From Amycolatopsis sp. EV170708-02-1 (GTDB lineage Bacteria; Actinomycetota; Actinomycetes; Mycobacteriales; Pseudonocardiaceae), in assembly GCF_022479115.1 (NCBI RefSeq), contig NZ_CP092497.1:1984001-2048000 (forward strand): a stretch of 64,000 nucleotides of DNA, read 5' to 3'. Below the pieces are notes generated by a model. It worked only from the letters and a program-made list of their open reading frames with translations, was not told the origin of the DNA and did no database searches. The translations under genes and the position numbers were made by a program. Below, in pieces: positions 6,352 through 54,637 of this stretch (within the stretch, counting starts at the first letter, position 1; each line of letters begins with the position of its first letter).

Positions 6352-7327
6352 CGGGCACCACCGGCGTGCGCGATGGCTTCGAGGCGGCTGAAGACCGACT
6401 TCGCGAGGACCTCGGGTTCGAGGACGAGGACGTCCGGGCCGTGGGCGGTGAGCCAGTCCGCGGCGGATTCCGGGTAGTACAACTCGATCTCCACGAGGTC
6501 GCCTTCTTCTCCCCCGGCGTCGCTGCGGCCGACCACCCGGCCGCGGCGGCGGACCCCGGCGGCCCGGCCGTCGGCGACCCACACACTGGCGGTGGTCGGA
6601 GCGGACGGATCCTCGCCACTGCTGGCGGAGACCATCTTCAGCAGGTTGACCCCTTCCGGGCGTTCGACGACGCCGGTTTCCCCGAAGGTGTCGACCTTCC
6701 CCGTCACGCGCGAGAGGCGGAAGCAGCGGGACGCGCCACGGTCCCTGTCGTGCCCGACGACGTACCAGCGGCCCTTCCACGACACCACGCCCCACGGTTC
6801 GAGGGTGCGGATCTTGCGCTCGGCCGAACCACTGCGGCGGTACTCGAAGCGCACCGCCTGCCCGGCTTGGACGGCGGCCAGCAGCGGGCCGAACGCCGGC
6901 TCGGCCCGCACACGGGGCTCGACGACGGTCGGGGCGTGGTCGTCGACCTCGACCCCGGCGGCGCGGAGTTTCACCAGCGCGCCTTGGGCCTCGCCGGTCA
7001 GTTCCGGGGAATCCCACAGCCGGACGGCGAGCCCGACCGCGGTCGCCTCGTCGGGCGCGAGGTCGATCTCGCCGAGTTCGTAGTCGCGGCGCGCGATGCG
7101 GTAGCCGTCGATCGCGTCGAACGCCGAGTTGCGGCCGGTCTCCAGCGGGATGCCGAGCTCGCGCAGTTCGGTCTTGTCGCGCTCGAACATGCGGAAGTAC
7201 GCCTCGTCGCTGGCCGCGTCGGCATACCCGGGCACGATGCCCGGATCCGCTCGGCGGTGAGGTACTGCCGGGTGGACAGGAGGGCCAGAACCAGGTTGAC
7301 CAGACGTTCGGCGCGTGCGGTGGACAC
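6348..7327 (-). pseudogene. pafB: PafB, WYL-domain regulator; frameshifted as sequenced
   Basis: The N-terminal helix-turn-helix (MSTARAERLVNLVLALLSTR from the ATG at 7327) is in one frame, and the rest, from about residue 32 (VPGYADAASDEAYFRMFERD), is in another. The switch falls at about 7235. Adding one base between TC and GTG gives RIRASVPGYAD, which aligns with the mycobacterial PafB sequence as I remember it, and a 326-residue protein of normal length. The body contains the WYL-type segment GRWYVVGHDRDRG. pafC overlaps the stop. Either the gene is broken or one base was lost in sequencing; the latter is favoured because four other conserved genes here show the same defect. Confidence 0.88.
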
Positions 7328-7336
7328 CCGGCTACC

Positions 7337-7768
7337 CTAGCCCGCGCCGTCCGACCCGATGGTGACAGCCGCCGATCGCGCGTCGTAACGATCTCTGGCG
7401 GTCTCCACCTCGTCGAACCGGGTCTCGGCCCAGTCCTTGATCCCGGCCAGCAGCTGCCGGAGGCTCCGGCCGAGCTCGGTCAGTTCGTAGTCCACCCGCA
7501 CCGGCACGCACGCGGTGACGGTGCGGGTCAGCAGGCCGTCCCGTTCCAGGGTCCGCAGCGTCTGCGTGAGCATCTTCTGGCTGACGCCGGCGATCCGGCG
7601 GGAGAGGTCGCTGTAGCGCTGCGGCCCGTCGCCGAGCGCCACGAGGACGAGGCTGACCCATTTGCCGGAGACCTCGTCGAGCAGTTTCCGGGCGGGACAG
7701 GCCGCGAGATAGGCGTCGTAGGCCCGCTTCTGCTCGTCCCGACGTTCCTGTGCCGTGCGCGTGACCAC
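7337..7768 (-). CDS. HxlR-family transcriptional regulator
   Basis: Winged-helix regulator of the HxlR family, 143 residues from the GTG at 7768 (VTRTAQERRDEQ). It has the family's N-terminal cysteine (AACPARKLL), GKWVSLVLVALGDGPQRYSDL, and a recognition region GVSQKMLTQTLRTLERDGL. A longer upstream frame would run through the intergenic promoter region and is not favoured. It diverges from a quinone-oxidoreductase gene, a common pairing in which the HxlR protein senses electrophiles or redox state and controls the reductase. A 14-bp perfect palindrome lies between the two genes. Confidence 0.88.
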   Translation of the reverse strand: MVTRTAQERRDEQKRAYDAYLAACPARKLLDEVSGKWVSLVLVALGDGPQRYSDLSRRIAGVSQKMLTQTLRTLERDGLLTRTVTACVPVRVDYELTELGRSLRQLLAGIKDWAETRFDEVETARDRYDARSAAVTIGSDGAG

Positions 7769-7794
7769 GGTGCGCGTACCTCCGCGTGGGTTGG

Positions 7795-7808
7795 GCACCT
7801 CGAGGTGC
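7795..7808. promoter_or_regulatory. Palindrome between HxlR gene and oxidoreductase
   Basis: GCACCTCGAGGTGC is a perfect 14-bp palindrome in the 103-base divergent spacer, 27 bases upstream of the HxlR start and 64 bases from the oxidoreductase ATG. It is a candidate operator for the HxlR dimer. A second, looser candidate is the GTACTT...GTAACT pair around 7808-7831. Confidence 0.45.
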
Positions 7809-7871
7809 GTACTTCCCGATGGAGAGTAACTCCCCATACGTTCGCAGGGAACGATCCCTTGGAGGAGAACG

Positions 7872-8807
7872 ATGCGTGCAGTGGTGGTCCGCCGGTTCGG
7901 CGGTCCGGAAGTCCTGGAATTCACCGAGGTCCCGATGCCGGTACCGGGGCCCGGTCAGGTGCGGGTGAAGGTCGCGGCGGCCGGGGTCAACCCGGTCGAC
8001 GCCGGGACCAGGTCGGGTTTCCTCACCGAGGCGGGGATCGTCCCGCCTCGCGAGGCGTTGGGGATCGGCTGGGACGTGGCGGGGACGGTCGACGCCGTGG
8101 GTGACGGCGTCACCGGGTTCGCCACGGGTGACAGTGTGATCGGCCTGCTTGACCGGCCGTCGGCGGCGCTCGGCACGTACGCCGAGTTCGTCGTCCTCGA
8201 CGTGGACGCGCTCGCCGCCGCACCGCGGACGGCGTCTCCCACGGAGGCCGCGACCCTGCCGTTGAACGGTCTCACCGCGGTCCAGGCGCTCGACCTTCTC
8301 GACCTCCCGCCGGGAGCGACGGTCCTGGTGACCGGTGCCGCGGGGGCTGTCGGCGGCTACGCGGTCGCCTTGGCCGAGGCGCGCGGTTTCCGGGTGGTCG
8401 CGGTCGCCGACACCGCCGACGAAGCAGTGGTCCGAGGGTTCGGTGCCGAGATCTTCGTGCCCCGTGGCGATTCCCTCGCCGATCGCGTGCGGTCGGTCGT
8501 CCCCGGTGGCGTCGACGCGGCACTCGACACCGCATTGCTCGGGCTCGAAGCCCTGGACGCCGTGGCGAATCGCGGCCGGTTCATCGTGTTCGCGGCCGGC
8601 GCCGCCCCGCTCCCCCTGCGCGGTATAGAGGTCGACCACGTCTGGGTCCACGCCGACGCCGCCGCGCTCGCCGGACTGGTCGCCCAGGTCGACGACGGCA
8701 CGCTCGCCCTGCGGGTCGCGGACACCCTGCCGTTGGGCGAGGCGGTGAAAGCCCACGAACGGCTCGCGGCGGGCGGTCTCCGCGGACGGCTAGTACTCAT
8801 AAGTTGA
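7872..8807 (+). CDS. NADP-dependent quinone oxidoreductase (zinc-independent MDR)
   Basis: Medium-chain dehydrogenase/reductase of the quinone oxidoreductase type, 311 residues, predicted to reduce quinones or enones using NADPH. The N-terminal GroES-like fold contains VAAAGVNPVDAGTRSG; the Rossmann fold has VLVTGAAGAVGGYAVALA (about 155-172). The structural and catalytic zinc cysteines of alcohol dehydrogenases are absent. Start ATG has a strong site, TTGGAGGAGAACG. It diverges from the HxlR regulator, its likely controller, and is followed after 32 bases by a separate promoter for the SRPBCC-SDR pair. Confidence 0.88.
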   Translation: MRAVVVRRFGGPEVLEFTEVPMPVPGPGQVRVKVAAAGVNPVDAGTRSGFLTEAGIVPPREALGIGWDVAGTVDAVGDGVTGFATGDSVIGLLDRPSAALGTYAEFVVLDVDALAAAPRTASPTEAATLPLNGLTAVQALDLLDLPPGATVLVTGAAGAVGGYAVALAEARGFRVVAVADTADEAVVRGFGAEIFVPRGDSLADRVRSVVPGGVDAALDTALLGLEALDAVANRGRFIVFAAGAAPLPLRGIEVDHVWVHADAAALAGLVAQVDDGTLALRVADTLPLGEAVKAHERLAAGGLRGRLVLIS

Positions 8808-53320: not shown

Positions 53321-53437
53321 TACCCGAGCGCCACCGTAACCCCGGCGACACCACAAGCCCCAGCAGTCACAGCGACGGCGCGTGAAGAGCCCCTTCACCC
53401 GGCTCAGCCGAAGAGACTCGACCTTCGCGCCTTCCCA

Positions 53438-53494
53438 AGTACGTGAAGGCCCCCTTCATTGCGTCTAGCGCAATGAAGGGGGCCTTCATGTACT
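53438..53494. repeat. Long palindrome (family B)
   Basis: 26-base arms (53438-53463 and 53469-53494) with one mismatch around TCTAG; the core is GTGAAGGCCCCCTTCATTGC. A short related arm pair, GTGAAG...CTTCAC, lies at 53382-53398. The 331-base gap 53261-53591 holds no gene I can support, only these elements. Confidence 0.85.
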
Positions 53495-53535
53495 GCAGCA
53501 GTGAGTGAAGGCGGCGGTGGCATGGTGGGTCAAGT

Positions 53536-53581
53536 CTCGTGAGTGGCAAGGACGGTTAGAACCGTCCTTGCCACTCACGAG
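53536..53581. repeat. Perfect palindrome after hemH (family C)
   Basis: 22-base arms (53536-53557 and 53560-53581) around AG; the core is GTGAGTGGCAAGGACGGTT. It differs from the other family C copies by TG to CA in each arm, so the pairing is kept. It lies 10 bases beyond the ferrochelatase stop on the minus strand. Confidence 0.88.
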
Positions 53582-53591
53582 GGCGGGGCGC

Positions 53592-54637
53592 TTACGGGCG
53601 CGCGGGCCTCTTCGCGGGCTCGCAGCACCCCACCGCGCAAGGCGCCCCGTTGATCGTGCACCCGGCCGCCGGGAACGGCGACAGCTTCCGCGCCGGCGCC
53701 CCCTCGACGTGTTCCCGGATCAGCTCCACGACGAGTTCGGCGAACCGAGGGTCGGTGTCCGGCGTGGCGGCGCGCGCGAAGCCCATGCCGTGCTCCGCGG
53801 CCCTCTCGGCGGCCTCGTTGTCGAGGTCCCAGATCACCTCGAGGTGGTCGGACACGAAGCCCACCGGGCAGACCACCACCGACGTGACGCCTTCCGCGTG
53901 CAGCGCGTCGATGTGGTCGACGATGTCCGGCTCCAGCCACGGCACCTGCGGCGGGCCGGAGCGCGACTGCCAGACGACGTCGTAGGTCTCGATCCCCGCT
54001 TCGGCCGCGACGAGCCTGGCCGCTTCGGCGATCTGACGCGAGTAACGCCGTCCGCCTTCCGACGGCGGGCCGGATGCCTTGTCGGCGGACTCGGGCACCG
54101 AGTGCGCGCAGAACACCGTCCTGGTCCCGGGCTGGTTCCCCAGCTTCGCGTGCGCGGCACGGACCGCGTCGGCGAAGGCGGCGATGAACAGCGGGTGGTC
54201 GAAGAACTGCCGCAGTTTCACCAGCTCCGGCGCGCCGTCGCCGACCGACGCACGAGCCCGCTCGATGTCCTCGTCGTACTGACGGCAGGCGGAATAGCCG
54301 CCGTACGCGCTCGTGGGGAAGACCAGGACGCGCCGAGCACCCGCCTCGGTGATTTCGGCCAGGGTGTCCTCGACCATCGGGCGCCAGTTGCGGTTGCCGA
54401 AGTGGACGGGCAGATCGATGCCGGCGGCCGCGAGTTGTTTCTCGACCGCGGAGATCGCGTCCCGGTTCAGCCGGTTGATCGGCGAGACCCCGCCGAAGTG
54501 CTGGTAGTGCTCGGAGACCTCGAGCAGCCGTTCCCGGGGGACCCCTCGGCCCGAGTGACGTTCTCCAGGAACGGCATCACCTCGTCGGGTCCCTCGGGAC
54601 CACCGAACGAAAGCCAAAGCAGCGCGTCGTAACCCAC
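53592..54637 (-). pseudogene. hemH: Ferrochelatase with Fe-S cysteines; frameshifted as sequenced
   Basis: Inserts iron into coproporphyrin III (the actinobacterial route, CpfC) or protoporphyrin. The start (GTG 54637, VGYDALLWLSFGGPEGPDEV) is in one frame; from GRGVPRERLLEVSEHYQHFG onward it is in another. One extra G at 54550-54552 gives NVTRGRGVPRERL and a 348-residue protein of family length. CAHSVPESADK and the C-terminal cysteines in AGCTINGAPCAVGCCEP, ligands of a [2Fe-2S] cluster, are present. Haem synthesis is expected to be essential for aerobic growth, so a real null is unlikely. Confidence 0.92.

Follow-up and report, generated by a model that had tools for sequence, protein, structure and literature searches.

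Six sites in a 64,000-base stretch of the chromosome of a soil bacterium, an Amycolatopsis, hereafter the window (G000:C1:1984001-2048000, lying within the single-contig, 9,660,387-base genome designated G000; ~70% GC), each lack one base and switch the reading frame of the gene in which they lie. Five genes are affected: a pafB-like gene, pafA, a gene for a site-2-protease-type peptidase, a gene for a calcineurin-like metallophosphoesterase and the ferrochelatase gene hemH. To judge from sequence comparison, these six breaks are very probably errors of the assembly consensus and not mutations of the organism. An earlier note, prepared from the letters of the stretch alone, had described the frame switches and preferred systematic under-calling of bases to parallel decay of the genes. 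The first point is confirmed here and the second supported: the switches are present in the sequence, and each of the six sites is one base short of the aligned congeners (with an exception at hemH described below). Under-calling is favored because the deficits are private to G000, deletions outnumber insertions 14:1, the losses depend on run length, one copy of the 23S rRNA gene has suffered them too, and the broken genes are otherwise normal with no sign of decay; it is far likelier than decay.

The top-ranked matches to the long piece of PafA are Amycolatopsis species, including A. oliviviridis at 99%, which places the host in this genus, and the stretch 28000-32000 of the window was matched in 80 of 80 genus genomes searched (G000 itself counted). 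Each broken gene was searched in these 80 genomes, and the best 29 of the 79 others were aligned. In an alignment to G020, a congener ~95% identical to the window sequence, the window is short by one base at 7239, 13805, 31024, 39719 and 40184, and alignment to a second congener, G026, yields the same five one-base deficits plus another at 54552. The genes and break sites are as follows, in window positions.

6348..7327, minus strand: pafB-like gene with WYL and WCX domains (Pfam), broken near 7239; 29 of 29 congeners longer
7236..7242: pafB break site, four consecutive C in close relatives but three in the window
13368..14725, minus strand: pafA (Pup-protein ligase), broken near 13805; 29 of 29 congeners longer
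13802..13810: pafA break site, GG adjoining a C run in the relatives and one G in the window
30278..31428, minus strand: gene for a site-2-protease-type M50 peptidase with a CBS domain, start codon uncertain, broken near 31024; 29 of 29 congeners longer
31021..31027: protease break site, in most close relatives a lone G flanked by C pairs, no run
39444..40266, minus strand: calcineurin-like metallophosphoesterase gene, broken at 39719 and 40184; 29 of 29 congeners longer at each
39716..39720: first metallophosphoesterase break, four consecutive G in most close relatives
40180..40185: second metallophosphoesterase break, five consecutive G in most close relatives
53592..54637, minus strand: hemH (ferrochelatase), broken near 54552, close to its 5' end
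54550..54554: hemH break site, four consecutive C in most relatives
5374-6345: pafC-like gene following pafB, with HTH_PafC, WYL and WCX domains

Thus, at the pafA, pafB and protease sites and at both metallophosphoesterase sites, the extra base is found in every one of the 29 aligned congeners, and at the hemH site in 28 of 29, the exception being G020. A comparison with close relatives at the same runs had been proposed in the earlier note, and its outcome is that the relatives keep the base, save for G020 at hemH. In G020 the hemH gene (L150) carries a separate one-base loss in an adjacent C run that is not short in G000; this loss is possibly an under-call of G020's own.

The identity of the broken genes is supported by domain content on either side of the breaks. 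The WYL gene fits pafB because the next gene carries the PafC helix-turn-helix domain. At the pafA break, the Pup_ligase profile is divided across two frames, with positions 1-328 in one and 329-441 in the other (Pfam), and the unbroken homologue in the congener G024 matches TIGR03686 with 776 bits. The protease gene similarly displays Peptidase_M50 profile positions 1-93 in one frame and 163-207 in the other (Pfam). The suggestion that family similarity resumes in the new frame holds for PafA and, more loosely, for the protease, but the two metallophosphoesterase pieces, searched separately, gave no Pfam match; the unbroken G024 homologue of this gene matches PF00149. The open frame of hemH lacks ferrochelatase profile positions 1-45 (Pfam), and the G024 homologue is again unbroken. 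The restored lengths stated in the earlier note for PafA (452 residues), the metallophosphoesterase (274) and ferrochelatase (348) equal those of the G024 homologues, but the G024 homologue of PafB has 325 residues against the stated 326, and that of the protease 370 against 383, a comparison that for the protease depends on the start codon chosen. Likewise, the statement that nearly all breaks fall in G or C runs describes pafB (a run of 4), the two metallophosphoesterase sites (4 and 5) and hemH (4) but not pafA (2) or the protease (1). Inspection of the break sites by eye alone revealed no shared motif.

The same kind of loss extends beyond the window. A total of 400 kb of G000 around it (G000:C1:1816001-2216000) was compared with the syntenic stretches of G020, G026 and G024; ~261 kb could be aligned to both G020 and G024, of which 241 kb is coding. 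To be counted, a private one-base change had to have clean flanks and to lie 30 or more bases from the ends of a gene in both relatives. By this measure, G000 has 13 private in-gene deletions and 1 insertion relative to G024 and G020, out of 39 private one-base differences overall. The remaining 25 were not counted, 24 of them being intergenic or close to gene ends and 1 falling within a gene in just one relative. Replacement of G020 by G026 adds the hemH deletion, bringing G000 to 14 deletions and 1 insertion. The same measure applied to the relatives reveals almost no such changes. G020 has no private in-gene change against G024 and G000 and one deletion, that in hemH, against G024 and G026, and G026 has none over 147 kb. 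G024 has 2 insertions and 1 deletion, but one of these insertions is offset by the deletion, which lies 8 bases from it; a further G024 insertion, within a gene in just one of the relatives, corresponds once more to the hemH site.

At least two of these three relatives cover 62,026 of the 64,000 window bases, and no private one-base change 30 or more bases into a gene was found there apart from the six sites. Another six private one-base differences from G020 and G024, 5 deletions and 1 insertion, occur in the window between genes or close to gene ends. It had also been asserted that no break requires the removal of a base; this holds inside the window, and the surrounding 400 kb has a single private in-gene insertion, located in a PIG-L family gene. 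The 14 deletions are spread over 12 genes of unrelated families, i.e. the five window genes and seven others. Among the latter are genes for a glyoxalase-family protein, a solute-binding protein, a siroheme synthase and an AMP-binding enzyme, as well as a small gene without a Pfam match and a gene for a large protein whose one match, to AAA, is below threshold. A giant gene of ~7400 residues outside the window (G000:C1, about 2143450-2165700) holds two private deletions. One 2000-residue piece of its product has condensation, AMP-binding and phosphopantetheine domains, and the gene therefore encodes a nonribosomal peptide synthetase.

The probability of a loss rises steeply with the length of the run in which it falls. 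When the 13 deletions relative to G024 and G020 are sorted by run length, as assigned from the pairwise alignments to relatives, the 223 G/C runs of length 5 account for 3, the 1184 of length 4 for 5, the 5708 of length 3 for 1 and the 27229 of length 2 for 1; the others affect a single G (2, among 76057) or a single T (1, among 47764). Per 1000 runs, the 12 G/C losses amount to 13.5 at length 5, 4.2 at length 4, 0.18 at length 3, 0.04 at length 2 and 0.03 at length 1. The deletion at 339819-339824 of the 400 kb is placed in a run of 3 by the G020 alignment, and the G024 alignment shifts the gap by a few bases. As the coding sequence examined contains just 72 A/T runs of at least 4 compared with 1412 such G/C runs, the A/T runs are too few to be informative, and the apparent preference for G and C may only mirror base composition.

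Losses of the same type occur in an rRNA gene. G000 has four 23S genes, and one of them (L344, G000:C1:7023998-7027130, at ~7.02 Mb) is one base short in each of three runs, C6, G3 and C4, that are full in 27 of 27 other copies (3 from G000 and 24 from six congeners). No mechanism related to reading frame can apply to rRNA. Another G000 23S copy has a gap variant in common with the congener G003, away from the three sites. A further congener with a single-contig genome, G014, was excluded from this comparison on account of a scrambled 23S region: all four of its 23S matches (L351, L358, L365, L372) fall within 8 kb (G014:C1:4418801-4426743), the pieces are incomplete, and the rRNA region looks collapsed or scrambled.

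Apart from their breaks, the genes have evolved as working genes do. Between G000 and G024, 12 broken genes (11 genes with deletions plus the insertion gene, with the giant gene excluded) differ by 0.021, 0.013 and 0.105 per site at codon positions 1, 2 and 3, compared with 0.027, 0.020 and 0.116 for 277 other genes. There is thus no relaxed constraint in the broken genes, whose rates are like those of the 277 others or stricter, and this normal codon-position pattern means that they were under selection until very recently. Furthermore, hemH is the sole PF00762 match found in the G000 genome, and an aerobic actinomycete would need ferrochelatase for heme.

Evidence from elsewhere in the chromosome was sought with a frame-shift hidden Markov model (HMM) applied to two remote regions (0.6-0.8 Mb and 7.6-7.8 Mb), to the window region and to the three relatives; in all, ~0.8 of the 9.66 Mb of G000 was examined (the 400 kb and two stretches of 200 kb). 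Plain event counts did not discriminate, the 400 kb of G000 giving 46 deletion events and G020 giving 47, and we think that the unfiltered events are mostly gene overlaps. With events attributable to gene overlap removed, the excess is modest: the window region has 7.1 deletion events per 100 kb of coding sequence and the remote regions 6.0 and 7.8; under the same filter, the relatives have 4.2 (G020), 4.3 (G026), and 4.0 and 3.3 (two G024 contigs). When only events in which the old frame stays open for more than 60 nt are considered, a cut picked post hoc after the event list had been inspected, G000 has 14, 7 and 6 events, i.e. 27 in 713 kb of coding sequence, as against 6 in 918 kb of the three relatives (p = 1e-5), and it was this cut alone that set the genomes clearly apart. 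Local frame scoring, with its threshold set strictly, overlooked the majority of known sites. The remote regions do lend some support, though less than the sequence near the window.

A plausible course of events can be outlined. Homopolymer runs, mostly of G or C and 4-5 long, would sometimes have come out one base short in sequencing, base calling or polishing, and occasionally a lone base within a GC-rich stretch would have been dropped. Such errors would be blind to gene function, so that each one falling in coding sequence would break a reading frame. The probable source is an under-polished long-read consensus. Consistent with this proposal, one study describes for a MinION assembly an error profile made up mostly of false deletions, most of them after runs of 4-5 bases and few at non-repeated bases (PMC12007338), and another traces frameshift errors in nanopore consensus sequences to homopolymer indels (PMC9262707). 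The G000 losses resemble the errors so described in their excess of deletions over insertions, their concentration in 4-5-base runs, the few losses at bases outside runs and the pseudogene-like appearance of the affected genes (PMC12007338). They differ in the bases affected. In the MinION assembly of Pss508, A/T runs dominate and G/C runs account for about half as many errors (PMC12007338), whereas nearly all G000 losses are of G or C; long A/T runs are rare in G000.

Several observations sit less comfortably with consensus error. The hemH gene is broken independently in a second genome, G020. The pafA loss falls in a run of 2 and the protease loss at a single base, and the wider set includes loss of another single G and of a single T. 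The 23S copies within G020 (2 columns) and G003 (10 columns) also differ from one another by gaps, none of which lies at the three sites short in G000. The HMM excess shrinks when the 60 nt cut is dropped (7.1, 6.0 and 7.8 versus 3.3-4.3 per 100 kb), and 59 kb of the remote stretches compared with G024 yielded 1 clear coding deletion and 1 doubtful one where ~3 were expected. Finally, 13 of the 14 polarized deletions lie in minus-strand genes compared with an expected 63% (p = 0.024, post hoc), an excess that unstranded, symmetric errors do not predict. In the two remote regions, 12 of 13 open-frame HMM events are likewise on the minus strand, and pooling these with the polarized deletions gives p = 0.001, a value that mixes polarized with unpolarized events; in the window region, only 10 of 14 HMM events are on that strand. 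The supply of runs was considered as a cause and set aside, as runs of at least 4 are split 60:40 between minus- and plus-strand genes and cannot account for 13 of 14. The excess may reflect chance or a strand-biased step in building the consensus, and it also gives the bolder view of the losses as real its firmest foothold.

The principal competing account is that the deletions are real, the culture or lineage having recently gained many one-base slippage mutations through a mutator or through relaxed selection in culture, such that the genes are true recent pseudogenes. Dependence on run length fits polymerase slippage too, actinobacterial mismatch repair handles indels poorly, the deletions are private and look recent, and the minus-strand excess would suit a strand-dependent mutation process. 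Genuine recent pseudogenes, like the genes described here, combine a frame-breaking indel with an intact remainder. The G000 breaks differ in that many occur at once, that they include a single-copy ferrochelatase gene and a 23S copy, that constraint is not relaxed and that three relatives are almost free of them. A real load of deletions would include the sole ferrochelatase found, siroheme synthase and three losses in one 23S gene, the substitution pattern is not relaxed, and three relatives of similar sequence show almost no in-gene losses, all of which renders this account improbable. More doubtful yet is a real episode of slippage in G/C runs, perhaps strand-dependent, that left several hundred broken genes, ferrochelatase and a 23S copy among them, which the cell tolerates or bridges at the level of RNA or translation.

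Two further accounts concern particular sites or a particular mechanism. The lack of one base in a neighboring C run of hemH in G020 could be taken to mean that five sites are errors and hemH a real mutable site. Yet G000 and G020 have lost their hemH bases from separate runs, the gene is unbroken at this point in 28 of 29 aligned congeners, the G020 loss may be its own under-call, and only one ferrochelatase was found in G000; we accordingly regard this combination as highly unlikely. Programmed breaks, in which ribosomal frameshifting or transcriptional slippage would join the two frames, receive the least credence of all and can be practically dismissed. The match to the PafA family does resume in the new frame right after the break, and that of the protease does so more loosely. 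Nevertheless, all 29 aligned congeners (28 at hemH) have the extra base that maintains a single frame, a 23S rRNA gene has undergone losses of the same type, and programmed frameshifting was rejected on the grounds that the break is not conserved and the relatives are unbroken.

A separate feature of these genomes came to light in the course of the comparisons. A palindromic element of ~60 bases (L331:7738-7798, L331:17765-17822) has many matches, on both strands, in G020, G024 and G026. Copies were found at 6 places in 800 kb of G000, none of them in the window, and the three that fall in the 400 kb surrounding the window lie in non-coding sequence.

If the breaks are consensus errors, as argued above, the living strain would carry unbroken versions of these genes. 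With 14 deletions in 241 kb of coding sequence, and on the assumption of a uniform rate and a genome that is 90% coding, extrapolation gives ~505 coding deletions genome-wide (276-848, Poisson). The value of the finding is as a warning of quality and not as biology. Genes of G000 for pupylation, heme and siroheme synthesis and a giant nonribosomal peptide synthetase may look like pseudogenes, and statements about gene loss, pathways or the pangenome that draw on the G000 assembly need checking; as the 23S copy shows, comparisons of rRNA sequences may suffer as well.

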